From a virus, in IMG/VR virus record IMGVR_UViG_3300028490_000005, positions 18,338 through 82,337 of that record: a stretch of DNA of 64,000 nt; one strand, given 5' to 3'. The notes beneath the pieces were generated by a model. That model saw only the letters and a program-made list of their open reading frames with translations. It was not told the origin of the DNA and searched no databases. Of this stretch, positions 13,262 to 54,137 are shown one piece after another. The translations under genes and the position numbers were made by a program. Positions within the stretch are counted from its first letter, which is position 1. Every line of letters starts with the position of its first letter.

Positions 13262-13669
13262 ATGGATATATTTAAAGAACTGGAACTCGCAGAATCAGAG
13301 TTGAACACATTAGATCACATTGATATTTGGTTTCACCGAACTTTCGGTGGGTTCATTGACTTCTTCAGGTATGATTTACCACAAGGGATTAAAAACTTCT
13401 GGTATTATAGGAAAGTAATATGGAGACACCGTTGGTATGACTATGGTTTTGCCGATGACGTTGTTCGTAGGTTGTATGAAGATAGGTCTGAAAATTGGCA
13501 CAAGAGCCACTATGTAGGATTTGAAAAAGATGCTTTACAACTTGACATAATCGTAGAACTTTTTAAAAGACTAGAAGATGCCGAATTCTTGACAGTAGAA
13601 GATGACCCTGAAGATAAAATCAGAAAAGAAATTTACAGAAGAATAGCGAGGAAACGATATTGGGATTAA
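13262..13669 (+). CDS. Unknown protein, 135 aa, possibly leaderless mRNA
   Basis: Only five bases separate TATAAT from this ATG, and no Shine-Dalgarno sequence is possible on a transcript starting at the usual distance. Rich in Trp, Tyr, His and Arg in the middle (NFWYYRKVIWRHRWYDY), with a charged helical C-terminus. Family not recognised. Confidence 0.75.
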   Translation: MDIFKELELAESELNTLDHIDIWFHRTFGGFIDFFRYDLPQGIKNFWYYRKVIWRHRWYDYGFADDVVRRLYEDRSENWHKSHYVGFEKDALQLDIIVELFKRLEDAEFLTVEDDPEDKIRKEIYRRIARKRYWD

Positions 13670-14061
13670 TAGAAAAATTGTTTGATAAATACAATGAGTT
13701 TATAAAATTTGAAACCATTGATATTGAAGATAGGCTCAGACGACACACCGAAATCTTGGGCTTCTATCAATCAACATTTTACACCATGAAACAAAAACAT
13801 ACTAAATATTCATTTGAATTGGATAGACAATGGCAAGAAAAATACCTCTACTATAAAAACGAATTCAATATAGTCTTAAACAACAATGAAATTAAGTCCT
13901 TTATTGAAAAGGACTTAGAATATTTAGAAATTAAGAGAAAACTTCAAGAAGTGACTGACATTTTAGAACAAATAGAATTAATCCTGAAAGGGTTGGATTC
14001 AATGAGATGGACTATAAAATCTATAATTGATTGGGAAAAATTTAAGGCTGGTCAGTTCTAA
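13660..14061 (+). CDS. Unknown coiled-coil protein, 133 aa
   Basis: TTG start at 13660 with GCGAGGAAA upstream, overlapping the previous gene. Long charged helices throughout, so probably a coiled coil. Its stop overlaps the first base of the late promoter motif that starts the next operon. Confidence 0.65.
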   Translation: MGLIEKLFDKYNEFIKFETIDIEDRLRRHTEILGFYQSTFYTMKQKHTKYSFELDRQWQEKYLYYKNEFNIVLNNNEIKSFIEKDLEYLEIKRKLQEVTDILEQIELILKGLDSMRWTIKSIIDWEKFKAGQF

Positions 14062-14071
14062 TTAAATAACT
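14061..14071 (+). promoter_or_regulatory. Candidate late promoter of the internal-protein array
   Basis: ATTAAATAACT, identical to the motif at 22207 (- strand), 25228 and 61297. It is similar to the T4 late element TATAAATA and lies 20 bp before ATG 14091. Confidence 0.6.
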
Positions 14072-14090: not shown

Positions 14091-14330
14091 ATGTTAAAAC
14101 AAATCATAGAAAAAATTACAAATGAAGTTATGTGCCCAGAAGCTAGATCTTTTGCATCTAAATTGGCAAAGAAGAGTGGTATGGTAACTATTAAGTGTAA
14201 AAAGACTGGGGATGAATTTGAAGTTGATTCAGATGCGAGCATTTTAGGTGGTTGGGTTTCAGCCAAAGGCAGTGATGGTAAATCAACTGATATAGATCTT
14301 TGTGGTAATAAAGATTATAAATTCGCATAA
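14091..14330 (+). CDS. Leader-tagged small protein 1 (putative internal head protein)
   Basis: 79 residues starting MLKQIIEK, first of an array sharing an MLxEIxE leader. After the leader comes a compact domain with three Cys and a Gly-rich beta region. TAGGAGTTTTA is a strong RBS. The leader ends in IxE, like T4 gp21 protease sites (I/LxE), so I infer a capsid-targeting signal. No function is recognised for the body. Confidence 0.75.
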   Translation: MLKQIIEKITNEVMCPEARSFASKLAKKSGMVTIKCKKTGDEFEVDSDASILGGWVSAKGSDGKSTDIDLCGNKDYKFA

Positions 14331-14339
14331 GGTATTGTA

Positions 14340-14600
14340 ATGTTAAAAGAAATCTTAGAAAAATCAAATGAAGTGAAAGATAAGAAAGCTTACGAAAAGA
14401 TTTATAAAGACATCATTGAATACATGGAAGAAGTGATTGCATATAGAGAAAAGATGAAATCTCGTGGTGATAAATTGGATGAATTATATAAAGAACAAAC
14501 TGGGAAGTCTATTTTGTTCCAAAGTCTCTATAATGGTAGTGTTATCACTAAAGATGATATTGATAATTTGAAAAAATTATCTAAGAAGAGGTTATCGTAA
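14340..14600 (+). CDS. Leader-tagged small protein 2 (putative internal head protein)
   Basis: 86 residues starting MLKEILEK. The body is helical and Lys-rich (likely basic overall), which suits a DNA-packed interior. The stop overlaps the next ATG as TAATG. Confidence 0.75.
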   Translation: MLKEILEKSNEVKDKKAYEKIYKDIIEYMEEVIAYREKMKSRGDKLDELYKEQTGKSILFQSLYNGSVITKDDIDNLKKLSKKRLS

Positions 14601-14791
14601 TGTTAAGAGAAATAGTAGAAGCCATTTCTTACGGTAACGTTAAGCAAAGACACGGGGCGTATATCTTTCATTTTGATGGAGATACAATTACTATGGTAGA
14701 TAAAGCTGGTAAGGTGATGGGCACTAAAAAATCCCCTTCTTTAGCATCAGTCCATACTAAAGCTATGACAAAAGAATTTGGTGGTAAGTAA
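14600..14791 (+). CDS. Leader-tagged small protein 3 (putative internal head protein)
   Basis: 63 residues starting MLREIVEA, an ideal IxE|A cleavage site for a T4-type prohead protease. The remaining 56 residues are basic, with a beta-hairpin look and a Lys/Thr/Ser-rich end. Coupled to both neighbours by TAATG overlaps. Confidence 0.75.
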   Translation: MLREIVEAISYGNVKQRHGAYIFHFDGDTITMVDKAGKVMGTKKSPSLASVHTKAMTKEFGGK

Positions 14792-14973
14792 TGTTAAGAG
14801 AAATAGTAGAGGGTGCAGACTGGGGTGAAGATGCTGAATTAACATTTTCAAAAATCATGAAGATAGTTGATGACATTAATTCTAAGATAAGTTCTGCTAA
14901 ATTAGACGCAAGAACTTACCAAACACTAGAAAAAGCTAAACAAGAGCTTGAGAAAGCGTTAAGGAGAATGTAA
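14791..14973 (+). CDS. Leader-tagged small protein 4 (putative internal head protein)
   Basis: 60 residues starting MLREIVEG (IxE|G). The first 20 bases are identical to those of gene 3. The body is a helical hairpin ending in EKALRRM. Confidence 0.75.
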   Translation: MLREIVEGADWGEDAELTFSKIMKIVDDINSKISSAKLDARTYQTLEKAKQELEKALRRM

Positions 14974-15272
14974 TGATTAGAGAAATAGTAGAAGGGTTGG
15001 GATTAGCTTCTGGTTCTAATTATTCGTACTTGAGTGGGAATAAAGATAACCGTCCAACTGGGATTTTAGTTCACACAAAAAGTGAGCGTGGTTCAATAAA
15101 GATCGCGTCAGAAGTAGAGAAAAGAGGACTTAAGTCTGAAATTCGTGACGGTAAGAAACAAATTGAAATATACGCAAGTCATTATAGTGATGAGGAAAAA
15201 TCTTATTTATCTAATATCATCGCTGGAGATGAATTAGATAAATTAATTAAAAAGATAGAAATATTAAACTAA
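14973..15272 (+). CDS. Leader-tagged small protein 5 (putative internal head protein)
   Basis: 99 residues starting MIREIVEG. The body is Ser/Gly/Lys-rich at first and then alpha/beta. It is unrelated in sequence to the other members outside the leader. Confidence 0.75.
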   Translation: MIREIVEGLGLASGSNYSYLSGNKDNRPTGILVHTKSERGSIKIASEVEKRGLKSEIRDGKKQIEIYASHYSDEEKSYLSNIIAGDELDKLIKKIEILN

Positions 15273-15290
15273 AAATTCAAGGAGAATGTA

Positions 15291-15347
15291 ATGAGAGATA
15301 TAGTATTTTGTGGTGAAGAAATCTTAAAAGAAGGAGGAGACGCATAA
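15291..15347 (+). CDS. 18-residue microORF inside the array
   Basis: ATG with a very good RBS (AAGGAGAATGTA) opens an 18-codon frame, MRDIV then FCGEEILKEGGDA, whose stop overlaps the next ATG. It starts like the leader (MR-x-IV) but lacks a body. It may be a decayed member, a leader-only peptide or a translational coupler. Confidence 0.45.
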   Translation: MRDIVFCGEEILKEGGDA

Positions 15348-15562
15348 TGTTAAAAGAAATTATAGAAAAAATCGAAGAAAAAGATATGATCAATCTTGGT
15401 GATTTTGAAAACCAAAAACATAAGAAATTGATTGATGAAGATTCAGATTATCAAAAATTCTTTCAGAAAAAGCTTAAGTCTTGGGGTGTAAAATCACCAG
15501 CTGAACTTGATAAAGAAAAGAGAAAGAAATTCTTTACTGAAATCGAAAAGGATTGGAAGTAA
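15347..15562 (+). CDS. Leader-tagged small protein 6 (putative internal head protein)
   Basis: 71 residues starting MLKEIIEK. The body is highly charged, Lys/Asp/Glu-rich and helical. Two bases separate it from the final member. Confidence 0.75.
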   Translation: MLKEIIEKIEEKDMINLGDFENQKHKKLIDEDSDYQKFFQKKLKSWGVKSPAELDKEKRKKFFTEIEKDWK

Positions 15563-15563
15563 A

Positions 15564-15857
15564 GTGTTAAGAGAAATTTTAGAGGAGCTTGAAATTGATG
15601 AGCTTAAGGGAAATATTGACCCAAAGGCTAAGAAACATGCTAAGATAGTTTCAAAAGCTAGAGCGAAAGTAAAATGCTCCGGAAATAATACTCCCTCTAA
15701 AATTAAAGACACTGGGACATCTGTTCGTTTCAAGTGTACTCCCAAAGACAAAACAAAGGCTAGAAAGATGGTAAAGGTTAGGAAGAAATTCAATAAGACC
15801 TCTGCAGGAAAGAAAGCCGTGAAAGTATCAAAACTTACAAAGAAATTTAGAAAATAG
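15564..15857 (+). CDS. Leader-tagged basic protein 7 (putative internal head protein)
   Basis: GTG start at 15564 (GGAAG upstream) gives 97 residues beginning (M)LREILEE. From residue 15 it is extremely basic (runs of KK, RK and KVRKKF), like a histone-like or DNA-condensing protein. This is the clearest support for packaging with the genome. A second acidic patch, ELEIDELKG, offers another possible cleavage site. Confidence 0.75.
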   Translation: MLREILEELEIDELKGNIDPKAKKHAKIVSKARAKVKCSGNNTPSKIKDTGTSVRFKCTPKDKTKARKMVKVRKKFNKTSAGKKAVKVSKLTKKFRK

Positions 15858-15923: not shown

Positions 15924-16655
15924 ATGACTATCCAACTACCAAAATTCACATTACTAGAGAAGTTATCTACTTCTGACGCAATATCTTGTTGCGATCGTTG
16001 TGAACGTGAAATCAAAAACTCATACATTATTAGAAATAACGAAGATAACTCTGTACACAACTATGGTTCTGGATGTGCTAAGCACGTTATGGGAATTTCA
16101 ATTACAGAAGTTGTTGAGCAAAATAAAGCTTATGACGAAGACCAAAAAAGAATAGCACGTGAAGCCGATCAAGAAGCTATGGGTAGAACTTACATACAAT
16201 CGTTTAATGAAGCTAATCCTAAAATGCTTAAGTTTATTGCTGAAGGTGCTACTGACAACAATTTCCTTTCTGACATGAAGAAGCGTATAGAGGAAACGGG
16301 TTCATTGACTGATGGGCAGTTTCACGCTGTGTATCGTATGATGTTACCTTTCGCTCAACTTGACGACAAAGTTAAGGACATGAAAGTGTACCCTTCAAAG
16401 ATTAATGCTCAAGAGGGTCAATGGGGTTGGTCTTATACAGTAACATGTATTACTGAAAACGATGAGAAAGTTCGTATATTCTTTTCATCATTGAATTTGG
16501 CTAACGGTGACCTCCTTGAAAAATGTGGTGTGATAGATGGTGATTTATTCCCTTCAAGAATTGACAAAGAAAATCCTATATTGGTTTCTGGTTCATTCGA
16601 TGGGTATAAAATCAAAAGAGCTAAGTTGGCAACTATTAAGCAAGATTTAAACTAA
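15924..16655 (+). CDS. Zinc-finger-like protein, 243 aa, unknown function
   Basis: N-terminal CCDRC (22-26) and GSGCAKH (48-54) can form a Cys/His zinc site. The rest is helical to about 150 and then beta-rich. The gene ends in the next promoter (KQDLN uses its TTTAA). Function not recognised. Confidence 0.8.
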   Translation: MTIQLPKFTLLEKLSTSDAISCCDRCEREIKNSYIIRNNEDNSVHNYGSGCAKHVMGISITEVVEQNKAYDEDQKRIAREADQEAMGRTYIQSFNEANPKMLKFIAEGATDNNFLSDMKKRIEETGSLTDGQFHAVYRMMLPFAQLDDKVKDMKVYPSKINAQEGQWGWSYTVTCITENDEKVRIFFSSLNLANGDLLEKCGVIDGDLFPSRIDKENPILVSGSFDGYKIKRAKLATIKQDLN

Positions 16656-16668
16656 CTTAGGGTATAAT
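16635..16668 (+). promoter_or_regulatory. Two-box phage promoter upstream of 16692
   Basis: TTAAG and TTTAA boxes 11 bp apart overlap the upstream coding end; TATAAT at 16663-16668. Confidence 0.65.
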
Positions 16669-16691
16669 GAATAAAATTGGTAAGGAATGAA

Positions 16692-17027
16692 ATGATTAAA
16701 TTGATAAAGGCTAAATATTCTGGTCACAGTGTGGTATCTAAATTGGAACTGTTAATTGGAACCGAAGGATTATCGTATTTTAAAGAAGATATAGTTAATT
16801 TCGAAGATTACGACGCCACAAAAACGAATGTCTTGGTATTCGACTATTCACCAATTAAACAAGGTAAAATATTAATTAAAGTACCAAATGGTGTGTGGGA
16901 AGTTTTAAAAATGAATTCTAAGATTTTCAATAGACTTAAAAAATTGGTAGATTATAAAGAACCACATTCTTCTGTAAAAAGTAATTGGTTGAGTTCAATT
17001 CGCTCATCATCAGTCACCGAGTTTTAA
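16692..17027 (+). CDS. Unknown protein, 111 aa
   Basis: ATG 16692 chosen because AAGGAATG lies at RBS distance; a TTG at 16677 is in frame. Lys/Ser-rich, no motif recognised. It stands alone between two promoters, just ahead of the UvsW-like helicase. Confidence 0.75.
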   Translation: MIKLIKAKYSGHSVVSKLELLIGTEGLSYFKEDIVNFEDYDATKTNVLVFDYSPIKQGKILIKVPNGVWEVLKMNSKIFNRLKKLVDYKEPHSSVKSNWLSSIRSSSVTEF

Positions 17028-17084: not shown

Positions 17085-18779
17085 GTGTTAATAAAAGATA
17101 GAGATGAAAGTTACTCGATTTTATCATTCGAAAATCACTCAAACAGTGAAGCTATAGAGCTGAGAGTTAAGCTTATGGATGACTTATCAGTATTTGTTGA
17201 TGGATATAAATTCAGTCCTAAATTCAGAGCTGGTGTGTGGGACGGAAAGAAATACTACTTCAAGATGCAAGTAGATATGTCAATGCAAATACCAAAAGGC
17301 TTGGCGGAAACTATATCGAAACGGTATGCTCAGCACTTAGATGAACCATATGAACCAATCAACAAACCAACACCATACCCAAAGGAAGTTGTCGAAAGTC
17401 ACATAGAATCATTAAAATTACCATTTGAACCATACGATTATCAAATTGATTCGCTCTATGAAGTATTAGAAAATCCTAGAAGGATTTTGGTGGCAGCGAC
17501 TGGTGCGGGTAAATCACTAATAATATACATAATAATGACATTTTTTGAAGCTCAAAATATGAAAGGATTATTGATTGTTCCAAATGTTGGTTTGGCTGAA
17601 CAAATGCGGACGGATTTTATAAGTTATGGAATGAGTGATGAAGAAGTAGATAAACGACTTCATACAATATTCGCTGGTAAAGAAAAAACATTCAGAAAAC
17701 CGATGACAGTAACTACTTGGCAATCAGCCGTCCTTATGGATTCATCACATTTCGATCAATTAAATTATGTGATTGTCGATGAAGCTCACCTAGCAACTGG
17801 GGAAAGTTTACAAAAATTATTAGCAGTGTCAAGGAATTGTACATATAAAATTGGATTAACTGGAACTCTACCAAAAACTTATGAAGGTAGGTTCACACTA
17901 TCAGCTACTCTTGGTAAAAGTGCTAAGATGATTACTCCTCAAGGTTTAATTGAAAGAGGGTTGGCTACACCAGTTACAATCATTACTGCTTATTTGAATT
18001 ACAGTATCGCTGATAAAAAGAAAGTTAAGGTATTAAAAAATTACCAAAAGGAAATAAAATTTCTCGAGGAACATCAAGGTCGTAACGACTTTATTGCCAA
18101 ACTAGCAATTCAAGCAACCAAGAAATATGGAAATACATTGATGATGTATAGTTCAATTCAACATGGAACGAATTTGTTAGGATTTGTCCTTTCCAATAAA
18201 TTCAACATAGACACACCAACAATTCTAGAAAAGGTTACTCCGAAAAGAGTTGCGGAAGCTAAGGAAGCTTGTTCAGACGCCGAAGGATTGTTTGTATTGA
18301 CTAAGCTCACACCAAAGGATATCAAAACTCTGAGTAAATACTATTCAGGCTCCGAAATAACCAATATAAAAGTCCTGAGTGATTATCACATATACTTGAT
18401 AAAAGGAAGTATTGAGGGAGAGGTGAGAAATGAAATCAGGGCATTGTTGGAGAAGGTTGATGATGCTATTTTAATTGGTTCAGCACAAACTGTTTCCACT
18501 GGTATGAATATTAAGAGATTGCACAACATATTCCTGACAAGCAGTACAAAATCATCGATTAGATTGAATCAAACTATTGGACGTGGTATGAGATTACATG
18601 GTGAAAAGAAAATGATGAGATTCTTTGACTTTATTGATGATTTTAGTACAAAGACGAAAAGAGGTAAGGTCACTAACAAAAACTATACTCTGAAACACAG
18701 TTATGAAAGATTGAACGAATACCTGGAACACGGGTATCCAATTAAAGAATTAGAAATAAATATAAAGGAAGACGATTGA
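17085..18779 (+). CDS. uvsW: SF2 DNA/RNA helicase, T4 UvsW-like
   Basis: 564 residues from GTG 17085 (GAAAGGACTATTAT before it). The N-terminal 110 residues resemble the UvsW DNA-binding domain. Walker A AATGAGKS is at 137-144 and DEAH at 232-235. SF2 motif VI is IGRGMRLHG in the C-terminal RecA domain. UvsW unwinds R-loops and branched DNA, ending origin-dependent initiation and helping recombination-dependent replication in T4. It overlaps the next gene by four bases. Confidence 0.85.
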   Translation: MLIKDRDESYSILSFENHSNSEAIELRVKLMDDLSVFVDGYKFSPKFRAGVWDGKKYYFKMQVDMSMQIPKGLAETISKRYAQHLDEPYEPINKPTPYPKEVVESHIESLKLPFEPYDYQIDSLYEVLENPRRILVAATGAGKSLIIYIIMTFFEAQNMKGLLIVPNVGLAEQMRTDFISYGMSDEEVDKRLHTIFAGKEKTFRKPMTVTTWQSAVLMDSSHFDQLNYVIVDEAHLATGESLQKLLAVSRNCTYKIGLTGTLPKTYEGRFTLSATLGKSAKMITPQGLIERGLATPVTIITAYLNYSIADKKKVKVLKNYQKEIKFLEEHQGRNDFIAKLAIQATKKYGNTLMMYSSIQHGTNLLGFVLSNKFNIDTPTILEKVTPKRVAEAKEACSDAEGLFVLTKLTPKDIKTLSKYYSGSEITNIKVLSDYHIYLIKGSIEGEVRNEIRALLEKVDDAILIGSAQTVSTGMNIKRLHNIFLTSSTKSSIRLNQTIGRGMRLHGEKKMMRFFDFIDDFSTKTKRGKVTNKNYTLKHSYERLNEYLEHGYPIKELEINIKEDD

Positions 18780-25227: not shown

Positions 25228-25238
25228 ATTAAATAACT
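25228..25238 (+). promoter_or_regulatory. Candidate late promoter upstream of 25262
   Basis: ATTAAATAACT in the short gap after the primase, 23 bp before ATG 25262. Confidence 0.6.
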
Positions 25239-25261
25239 TTATAAAACTCAGGAGAACGTAA

Positions 25262-26752
25262 ATGGTAGAGATAAGAAAAATTATAGAAAACTTAAGTGAC
25301 TATGGGCTTATTGAAGGTGAATTGAATGAATCTTCATTCAGTGCTTCAAAAATAAAGAAGGTATCAGACCTTCTTGCAGTAGTCCTTGGGCATTCTTTTG
25401 GAGAATTTAAACAACTTGGTGGAAGCCTTGGTTTTGAAGAATTCAAGAAGAAAGGGATGGGTGAAGGAAAGGGATACAAATACATGAACAACAAAGGGTT
25501 CATGATTAGATTTGGTTGGCTTAAAAAGTCTAAAAAGTCCAAATACCAAATTAACGTGGTAGACTTTTGGAATCCAAAAGATGGTAAGAAAAGATGGGAT
25601 ACACCTTCATTGACAATTAGATTAGCTGATTGGATGAATATTGTGGACGTAGTTTCTGAATTGAAAGATGTACTTATTTCTGGTAATGTTAATTCTATTG
25701 TAGAATCACATTCAGATAAGAAATCACTGTCACTATTAGAATCAAAAGAACCTGGAAGTAAATTAATCCAATACGCAGCATTTAAAGGTGTTGAATATGT
25801 TGGTCCAATGACACCTTACAAATTCATACAAACTCTTAAAGACGGTGGTCACTGGGATGAAGATGAATATAAAGGTTATGCAATCACTAAACATGAGAAA
25901 GAAAGTAACTCAACTGGAGAAGTTTTCAAAGCAGCAGACAAGAAATTGGCTGAAAAGAAATGGTCAGATCCTGAATTAGTATTTGATGACATCGAAAAGT
26001 TGACTAAGATTGTAGCAACTGGTGGAGCAAACGGACTAATTGTAGCTGGAATGGCTGGTATGGGTAAAACTTTCCACGTTGAAAAAACTATGAAGGCTTT
26101 ACTTGGTACGTCACAAGGTGCTGATGCTAAGTGGAGACACAGAAAAGGTGCTAAATTATCACCATTCGGTCTATATATGGACTTGTTCATGAATAGAAAT
26201 GATATGACTATTGTATATGATGACTCTGACTCAGTATGGAATGATAAAGATTCAGTGAATATTCTTAAGTCAGCAATTGATACATATAAGGTGAGACAAG
26301 TATCTTGGCCATCTAAAGCAACTGTGAACCTTGAGCTTATGGGTGTGGAAGAAAAAGAAGAATACCTTGAAAAATTGTATGATGCAATGGTGAATAACCC
26401 AGAAGCTGTTGGTACAAGTATTAAACTTCCTTCTGCGTTCGACTTTACATCAAGAATTATTTTCATATCAAATATGCCCGCAGCAAAATTTGATAAAGAT
26501 GCTAACATGTCTGCTATTAAGTCGAGAACATTCTTCATGGACGTTCAACTTAAGCGTGAGGATGTCATTAATAGAATTAGATCCATTCTACCATTCATTG
26601 AACCAGAAGTAGATATCAATATGAAAGAAGAAATTCTTGCTCAATTAGCAGAATCGGATCACACACTAACTATGAGAGCCGTTGTTGCCGCAATAGCAAT
26701 TAGAAAAGCTGGTCTTACAGACTGGGACAGATTGGTTAAAGAGTACGCGTAA
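25262..26752 (+). CDS. AAA-like ATPase, late-expressed, unknown role
   Basis: 496 residues. Walker A GMAGMGKT is at 263-270, a Walker B-like strand MTIVYDDSD at about 318-326, and FTSRIIFISNM in sensor-1 position. The first 25 residues (MVEIRKIIEN...EGELNE) resemble the IxE leader of the 14 kb array. With the late promoter in front, this suggests a virion or assembly role. The N-terminal 200 residues hold no domain I recognise. Confidence 0.7.
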   Translation: MVEIRKIIENLSDYGLIEGELNESSFSASKIKKVSDLLAVVLGHSFGEFKQLGGSLGFEEFKKKGMGEGKGYKYMNNKGFMIRFGWLKKSKKSKYQINVVDFWNPKDGKKRWDTPSLTIRLADWMNIVDVVSELKDVLISGNVNSIVESHSDKKSLSLLESKEPGSKLIQYAAFKGVEYVGPMTPYKFIQTLKDGGHWDEDEYKGYAITKHEKESNSTGEVFKAADKKLAEKKWSDPELVFDDIEKLTKIVATGGANGLIVAGMAGMGKTFHVEKTMKALLGTSQGADAKWRHRKGAKLSPFGLYMDLFMNRNDMTIVYDDSDSVWNDKDSVNILKSAIDTYKVRQVSWPSKATVNLELMGVEEKEEYLEKLYDAMVNNPEAVGTSIKLPSAFDFTSRIIFISNMPAAKFDKDANMSAIKSRTFFMDVQLKREDVINRIRSILPFIEPEVDINMKEEILAQLAESDHTLTMRAVVAAIAIRKAGLTDWDRLVKEYA

Positions 26753-52691: not shown

Positions 52692-54137
52692 ATGAATACA
52701 AATATAATTATGATGGCTGACAGTTACAAATACAGCCACTGGAAGCAATACCCTAATAATATGGTTTCAATGTTTGATTACGCAGAAGCACGTTCTGGTA
52801 AAGTTTACCCAGCAACTGTATTCTTCGGTCTACAATACTACATCAATGAATACCTTATGAAACCACTCACGGTCAATGATGTTTACGAAGCTAAAGACTT
52901 TGCACAAGAACACGGAATTCCGTTTAACCTTGATGGTTGGATGCATATTCTAAATGAACACGACGGTTTCCTTCCAGTAGAAATTAGAGCAGTCAAAGAG
53001 GGTACGCTTGTGCCAACGGGTAATGCACTATTCACTATTGAGTCAACTGACAAAAAAGTTCCGTGGATTGCTGGTTTCCTTGAAACACTTCTAATGAAAG
53101 TTTGGTATCCATGTAACGTGGCTACAAGAAGCTTCTATGTTAAAGAATCTATCGCTAGATTTTGGGCAGATACAGTAGACCCTGAAGAGCAATTTGGTAT
53201 TAACTTTGCTTACCACAACTTTGGTGATAGAGGTTCTAGTTCTCCTGAGTCAGCTGGTATCGGTGGTCTAGCACACCTTACTCAATTTATGGGTACAGAT
53301 AACTTCGACGCACTTAGATACGCAAAAGTGTATGGTGAAAAGGTCATAGGATTTAGTATTCCTGCTACAGAGCACTCTAGTACAACAGCGTGGGGTCAAG
53401 AGAACGAGCTTCAAATGATTATGAACCACATTGAAACAAATAAGGGTTCAGACATCATCGCAGCAGTTTGTGACTCATACGACTACCTTGCAACGGTTAA
53501 GGCTGTGACATCAGGGGAATTTAAGTCTAAGATTGAAAGTCCAGATTACCCTAAATTTGTAATCAGACCCGACTCTGGGGATCCAATTGAAATGGTAGAT
53601 GCTACACTTGCTATCATGGAAATGAACGGGGTTGAACTTACTGTAAATTCAAAAGGATATAAAGTCTTTAACAAGTATGGTATCATCTGGGGTGACGGAA
53701 TTGACAATGTAGTTATTGAAAAGCTTCTTAATCTTCTTAAGAAAAGAGGGTTTGCTGCGAGTAACATAGCATTTGGTTCAGGTGGTTGGCTAATGCAACA
53801 ACACGATAGAGATACTCAAGCGTGGGCAGTTAAATGTTCTAGTATTACAGTTGATACGGGTTCTCCTATAGAAGATGGGGCAGGAAAATTCTCTTGGGAA
53901 GAATTCCTAGTAGAACGTGACGTGTTCAAAGACCCAATTACTGCTCCGAACAAGAAAAGTAAGAAGGGTGTGCTTACACTATGGTACAACAAGGCGACCA
54001 AGACATACTTCACTGATAGTAGAAGTATGGACACAGATGGTCAAGTAATTGATTGTCTTAATATAGTGTACAGAAATGGTAAGGCTCCAAACCAAGTTAC
54101 GTTCACCGAAGTTCGCGAAACTTCTGGAGAACTGTAA
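52692..54137 (+). CDS. nadV: Nicotinamide phosphoribosyltransferase (NamPRT)
   Basis: 481 residues, full length for the family. ADSYKYSHWKQYP at the start, FGDRGSSSPESAG, TEHSSTTAWG and VIRPDSGDP are hallmark NamPRT segments for substrate and PRPP binding. It makes NMN from nicotinamide and PRPP. With the NMN adenylyltransferase two genes on, it forms the two-step pathway phages use to rebuild NAD+ (called NARP2). That pathway can counter NAD+-depleting host defences. Confidence 0.9.
   Translation: MNTNIIMMADSYKYSHWKQYPNNMVSMFDYAEARSGKVYPATVFFGLQYYINEYLMKPLTVNDVYEAKDFAQEHGIPFNLDGWMHILNEHDGFLPVEIRAVKEGTLVPTGNALFTIESTDKKVPWIAGFLETLLMKVWYPCNVATRSFYVKESIARFWADTVDPEEQFGINFAYHNFGDRGSSSPESAGIGGLAHLTQFMGTDNFDALRYAKVYGEKVIGFSIPATEHSSTTAWGQENELQMIMNHIETNKGSDIIAAVCDSYDYLATVKAVTSGEFKSKIESPDYPKFVIRPDSGDPIEMVDATLAIMEMNGVELTVNSKGYKVFNKYGIIWGDGIDNVVIEKLLNLLKKRGFAASNIAFGSGGWLMQQHDRDTQAWAVKCSSITVDTGSPIEDGAGKFSWEEFLVERDVFKDPITAPNKKSKKGVLTLWYNKATKTYFTDSRSMDTDGQVIDCLNIVYRNGKAPNQVTFTEVRETSGEL

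Follow-up and report, generated by a model that had tools for sequence, protein, structure and literature searches.

Which role can be played by a run of small genes that are alike in their first residues and otherwise unrelated? The question is raised by positions 14091-15857 of a 64,000-nucleotide stretch of viral DNA (the window; positions 18,338 to 82,337 of IMG/VR record IMGVR_UViG_3300028490_000005), where seven consecutive open reading frames (ORFs) are all present and each starts with a common leader. The array is bordered by uvsY directly upstream and by uvsW downstream, and the phage is therefore considered to be T4-like. Judged from its sequence, the array very probably serves this phage as a cassette for small internal head proteins. 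The sequence-only reading of the window had proposed a capsid-targeted cassette similar to the T4 internal proteins and cut after [I/L]-x-E, and this proposal has withstood all sequence tests run: the leader is independent of 45 body families, the candidate cut motifs usually compensate for each other, the locus is hypervariable, a late-like box is present, a relative of gene 6 in Vibrio phage pv27 has a T4-type leader and lies beside a head gene, and the cargo of two relatives includes Acb1.

The leader and its candidate cut sites

In five contigs of uncultivated T4-like phages the leader was found on 68 proteins, which belong to 45 body families; it also occurs in less related contigs. It follows the pattern M-[LI]-[RK]-E-[IA]-[ILV]-E-x-[ILV]-x-E, about 11 residues. 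Over 55 leader proteins, residues 2-7 carry 2.1-3.5 bits of information and residue 8 carries 0.45; values of 1.26, 0.61, and 0.66 follow at residues 9, 10, and 11 (I/L/V - x - E), with the null level of 0.27 beyond. Because the information returns at residues 9-11 and then drops to null, the leader unit is taken to be about 11 residues long; the leader of only 7 residues that had been described earlier was rejected, as conserved positions continue to residue 11, and the accompanying claim that it is much shorter than that of T4 has to be abandoned as well (about 11 residues compared with 10 in IPIII).

The pattern offers two possible sites of the T4 gp21 type ([IL]-x-E), and one or two [I/L/V]-x-E motifs are contained in the leader. 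The motif [ILVM]-x-E is present within the first 12 residues in 64 of the 68 leaders, compared with 1-7% at control positions. The second site occurs in 20 of the 26 leaders without the first site and in 10 of the 42 with it (Fisher test, 3.6e-5), the median p being about 0.003 when one protein per family is taken. In the gene-4 family the bodies of MLREIVE↓GADWGEDAELTF and MLRETIKDLKE↓SASWADDAELTF (↓, predicted cut) can be aligned starting immediately behind the two predicted cuts, although the two leaders differ in length, 7 and 11 residues. As had been stated, three leaders of the array continue with Ala or Gly, namely, those of genes 3, 4, and 5 (A, G, and G); among all leaders the residue following the cut (P1') is Ala more often after the second site than after E7.

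A second leader flavour, MIREA..INE↓A or MFRQA..IQE↓R, was observed on larger proteins of 250-640 residues, some of them cytidylyltransferase-like, with examples in the contigs G001, G002, and G006 (L040:8536-10173, L105:1917-3842, and L107:4091-4882).

The array, its relatives, and their cargo

The bodies of the array form seven families, one for each gene (blastp, 1e-3), and contain 12-29% Lys, which agrees with the earlier description of unrelated and often Lys-rich bodies; the common starts were likewise correctly recognized, the chance being 3e-6 per gene and the motif being found in no other gene of the window. The array genes, the tiny ORF, the bordering genes, the promoter-like box, and the ORF at 25262 are all on the plus strand. 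Gene 1 (14091..14330, 79 residues) has the leader MLKQIIE↓KITN (14091..14123) with the predicted cut after E7 and an orthologue of 47% identity in L014; its AlphaFold model consists of poorly ordered residues 1-9 (predicted local distance difference test, pLDDT, <50) followed by a helix and five strands, with no significant match in the PDB. Gene 2 (14340..14600, 86 residues, MLKEILE) has a weak relative at L005:119-301 (31%, E=1e-5), the leader being within the alignment. The orthologue of gene 3 (14600..14791, 63 residues, MLREIVE↓A) is found at L005:301-480 with the leader MLKEILENLKE, and gene 4 (14791..14973, 60 residues) reads MLREIVE↓GADW where its orthologue in L014 reads MLRETIKDLKE↓SASW. 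A search for relatives of gene 5 (14973..15272, 99 residues, MIREIVE↓G) found none, and the tiny ORF MRDIVFCGEEILKEGGDA (15291..15347) between genes 5 and 6 is possibly a remnant. Gene 6 (15347..15562, 71 residues, MLKEIIE↓K) ends with a module of the family phrog_28651. Gene 7 (15564..15857, 97 residues, (V)LREILE), with relatives in L005, L013, and L041, begins with GTG, and this start is supported because the orthologue in L005 begins with ATG at the matching place (MLIEILE). No match to cultured phages was obtained for the array locus by blastn or for gene 7 by tblastn.

The contig L005 (IMG/VR; UvsW 70% identical) contains a six-gene array just upstream of uvsW, its first gene being cut by the contig end, with the leaders MLKEILE, MLREILE, and MLIEILE; relatives of genes 2, 3, 4, 6, and 7 are present in changed order together with one different body. 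The uvsY-array-uvsW arrangement recurs with four genes in G001 (110 kb) and with three in G002 (141 kb), and two leader genes with different bodies occupy the same locus in G009. Since the gene sets differ among G000, G001, G002, and G009 (and L005 on the uvsW side) and some sites are empty, uvsY being followed by uvsW with no leader gene between them in L131 and L132, the locus is regarded as a variable insertion site. The claim of a leader conserved independently of its bodies in a hypervariable locus is thus upheld by the 45 body families, the changing gene sets, and the empty sites.

A degenerate DNA pattern of the leader matched 9 starts in G001 and 6 each in G002 and G006, with no match for the reversed pattern; within a contig these starts share one strand, apart from a single one in G002. 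G006 contains long tandem runs of leader genes, one of about 14 genes, and scattered single leader genes are also found elsewhere in the genomes. The contig carries an eighth copy before the window begins (L004:14078-14203, MLKEVLDKIKE...), with Asp at the cut position (MLKEVLD), a residue that in T4 permits targeting and blocks processing. Many of the exact matches to the leader pattern in IMG/VR came from unrelated phages, and these were rejected as chance-like in appearance; a scan of Campylobacter phage NCTC12673 gave no convincing cases of the leader.

An Acb1 domain stands behind the leader in two relatives (L039:6799-7278 and L106:4477-4953; PF23474, 5.8e-26 and 2e-25; PDB 7t26), where the leader precedes the domain and lies outside it and both H-x-T motifs are present; Acb1 is confined to these relatives, and none is found in the array of the window. 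Among other leader proteins, domain matches were obtained to DUF5856 (5e-14), to the zeta-toxin/kinase type (6e-6), and to the cytidylyltransferase type (3e-5); a match to PARP in one protein is weak (0.002, below the cut-off). The few recognizable leader proteins thus include an inhibitor of the cyclic oligonucleotide-based antiphage signaling system (CBASS), and most have no known function.

The upstream border of the array is formed by the recombination mediator UvsY (13660..14061; phrog_231, E=9e-16), which is the same neighbour in L013, L014, and L109. The downstream border is the helicase UvsW (17085..18779; phrog_16, E=6e-72), separated from the array by genes at 15924-17027 and most similar among cultured phages to Campylobacter phages, at about 34% identity. 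The T4 core replication and recombination genes present are those for UvsY, UvsW, the single-stranded DNA-binding protein, primase, and exonuclease.

The late-promoter-like box ATTAAATA (14061..14068) has its first base 30 nucleotides (nt) upstream of the gene 1 ATG. Leader genes in L013, L014, L106, and L112 have the box [AC]TTAAATA at 28-30 nt upstream, and it also precedes the genes for portal and terminase in L045 and L112. Counted over G000, G001, G002, and G006, 51 of 69 cases of the box are no more than 75 nt from a start, compared with 44 of 151 for the reversed motif. As proposed, a late-promoter-like box thus precedes the array, but its sequence is similar and not identical to the T4 late consensus. 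A copy of ATTAAATA at 25228 precedes a 496-residue ORF (25228..26752 with the box, start at 25262; phrog_1250) that reads MVEIRKIIENL...ELNE↓S and has SLNE↓A and ILNE↓A at the matching place in relatives; from these motifs its product may be a further processed head protein.

Several side observations concern the surroundings of the array. At L004:13314-14203 an HNH endonuclease gene follows a metabolic gene, a duplicate of whose 3' end (TGRPRNRY...ECSIDEWL) lies behind it, and the stray leader-gene copy MLKEVLDKIKEEN..., with Asp at the cut position, sits in between. Sugar genes that by eye resemble those for fucosyltransferase, GDP-mannose dehydratase, and GDP-fucose synthase are located at L004:6689-11576, and a nicotinamide phosphoribosyltransferase in the window (52692-54137; phrog_448, 1e-133) points to phage metabolism of nicotinamide adenine dinucleotide (NAD).

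Links to the head and competing explanations

By analogy with the T4 internal proteins, the leader proteins would most likely be targeted to the capsid, released by a protease, and injected together with the DNA. During late infection the leader would dock each protein to the prohead core, where an S77 (gp21-type) prohead protease would cut after [I/L]-x-E; the freed basic proteins would remain with the packaged DNA and enter the next host together with it. At least some cargo would then act on host defences, as Acb1 in two relatives suggests, and the part of others, for example gene 7, may be limited to DNA binding or condensation. Somewhat favoured, with much less assurance than the internal-protein reading of the array itself, is the wider proposal of a general delivery tag, in which an uncultivated T4-like lineage would use one leader to load a large and fast-changing set of pre-made effectors (about 10-25 per genome) into the head for injection along with the DNA; one of them, an anti-CBASS enzyme, would be active before any phage genes are expressed. 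If this is true, the leader is a sequence-searchable mark of injected phage proteins, ORFs starting with it become candidate effectors, and the question of which proteins T4-like phages inject, and against which defences, turns into a screenable list that reaches beyond the enterobacterial T-even phages in which internal proteins were studied.

One connection with head genes was obtained through gene 6. Its C-terminal module (residues 33-71) belongs to phrog_28651 (2e-6) and was found by tblastn in 23 cultured phages; it occurs in many large phages, in some of them next to head genes; the model of gene 6 contains two helices with a poorly ordered N-terminal half. In pv27 the module is part of a 61-residue protein (phrog_28651, 7e-7) with the T4-type leader MKQTFREFLEE↓S, encoded two genes downstream of a major-head-protein homologue (phrog_138, 2.5e-15); three more similar starts were found in this phage by a looser protein pattern (MKFKQFLAE, MKFKEYLNE, and MSKRGFKKFLEE), and the pv27-type leader DNA pattern gave one match. 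In Pseudomonas phages the module belongs to a large protein whose gene directly follows the portal gene. Among leader-bearing contigs, G008 has terminase parts with a leader gene lying between them, and an S77 protease gene follows about 4.2 kb downstream of this leader gene; G004 combines leader genes, the S77 protease, and gp23 with a scaffold-like protein rich in [ILV]-x-E-[AGSN] (15 compared with 3.4 expected); gp23 was searched for in eight further leader-bearing contigs and found in none. A tail-sheath match near a leader gene of G002 looked spurious on inspection and was dropped. The gene 6 module was also observed near the start of a 589-residue protein on a bacterial genome scaffold of Algoriphagus sediminis (L126:7968-9737) and in L127, which is binned as Pacearchaeota and is phage-like in appearance; a search of GTDB genomes with gene 6 gave two distant embedded modules and no leader array.

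Several points weigh against the cassette of internal head proteins. The leader set was chosen by the first residues of the proteins, and the compensation statistic is modest once it is cut to one protein per family. The residue after E7 is often Lys (12 of 42, the commonest), compared with T4, where cuts are best known before Ala. The T4 IPIII leader is MKTYQEFIAE, and the sequence of the present leader is unrelated to the T4 capsid-targeting sequence (CTS), only the plan being alike (short length, hydrophobic spacing, and final [I/L]-x-E); because of this difference membership in the T4 leader family is not claimed. The seven bodies of the window carry no assigned function. Finally, portal, gp23, and prohead protease genes were not found on the contig of this phage or on G001 and G002; the S77 protease, seen in G004 and G008, was not found on G000, G001, and G002, contigs without recognizable head genes, and that of this very phage is unseen because its contig appears to lack the head module.

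The strongest competing explanation, considered possible with rather low probability, accepts the leader as a capsid-targeting sequence and regards the cargo mainly as structural core or DNA-condensing proteins that are kept in the head and not injected as anti-defence effectors. It is favoured by the very basic, histone-like gene 7 (net charge +24) and by the Lys content of leader proteins, 14.8% compared with 7.3% in other small ORFs (p=1e-16), with a more basic character as well (p=3e-5); the Pseudomonas proteins encoded directly downstream of portal genes and the influence of T4 IPIII on head assembly point in the same direction. However, the leader is carried by Acb1 in two relatives and by possible kinase-, ADP-ribosyltransferase-, and nucleotidyltransferase-like enzymes in others, and the cargo varies strongly among relatives up to its absence in L131 and L132, which is unusual for core assembly parts.

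It is unlikely that the leader is a tag for some target outside the head, such as a phage compartment, a host complex, or a degradation pathway, with [I/L]-x-E being incidental. The permissive P1' position would fit such a tag, but the motif frequency in the 68 leaders, the second site where the first is lost, the alignment of bodies right after the predicted cut, and the occurrence in pv27 of the gene 6 module behind a T4-type leader and next to a head gene all disagree with it.

Still less probable is a feature of the DNA itself, either a translation start region or a recombination seam for cassette shuffling, with the peptide being unimportant. The conservation of DNA over the leader that had been claimed does exist, and a part of it is start-region AT-richness because the first codons lean to A/T-rich synonyms: the G+C content at third positions (GC3) of codons 2-5 is 0.09 in leader genes and 0.18 in other genes. 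Several array genes also begin on the stop of the preceding gene (TAATG overlap), which makes clean seams, and the cargo is shuffled among relatives. On the other hand, Leu, Ile, Lys, and Glu in the leader use several codons, and position 6 swaps ATA, GTA, TTA, and CTA and stays I, L, or V, so that selection at the peptide level is the simpler reading; moreover, conservation resumes at residues 9-11 past the free residue 8, and single leader genes are scattered elsewhere in the genomes. A role as a seam may coexist with that of the peptide. An origin by chance, or by a recent tandem duplication of a single gene with later divergence of the bodies beyond recognition, has only the tandem arrangement in its favour and is hardly credible in view of the per-gene chance, the separate families and different predicted folds of the bodies, and the leader on Acb1 and also on DUF5856 proteins, which already contradicts it.

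Comparison with known systems

In T4 the capsid-targeting sequence, the cut after L/I-X-E made by gp21, and injected inhibitors provide the precedent (PMC9026906, PMC3012670, PMC12373910); the first 10 residues of IPIII suffice for targeting (PMC9026906), the internal proteins are Lys-rich and basic, and three of them are now known as inhibitors of type IV restriction enzymes (PMC12373910). Like the array, IPI, IPII, and IPIII have a short N-terminal leader common to otherwise unrelated small basic proteins, with [L/I]-x-E closing the leader, hypervariable loci, and diverse cargo (PMC9026906, PMC3012670, PMC12373910). Unlike them, the present leaders often hold two candidate cut sites, serve far more cargo per genome, and are located between uvsY and uvsW, and their carriers are uncultivated phages with UvsW nearest to that of Campylobacter phages (34%).

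Enzyme-sized head cargo has its counterpart in T4 Alt, an injected ADP-ribosyltransferase with gp21-processed termini, which resembles in this respect the larger leader proteins of relatives, one of them being the protein with the weak PARP match; no homology to Alt was found, and no search was aimed at it. The anti-CBASS phosphodiesterase Acb1 is extended in two relatives by a leader of 11-16 residues ahead of the domain and would be delivered ready-made instead of synthesized after infection. The family phrog_28651 has no known function, and in other phages its module is embedded in larger proteins, unlike in gene 6. The ejection proteins of phiKZ and SPN3US and DarA and Hdf of P1 are not known to have a common short leader on tandem small genes. 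They are described as head-packaged proteins that leave the head together with the DNA, some after processing by the prohead protease (PMC5694885, PMC7411985, PMC12810830).

In summary, the array is best read, by analogy, as a distinct and larger counterpart of the T4 capsid-targeting and internal-protein system, for which packaging, cleavage, injection, and targets are proposed on the T4 model; its new elements are a distinct leader designed with two sites, the number of families among the cargo, and the link to Acb1.
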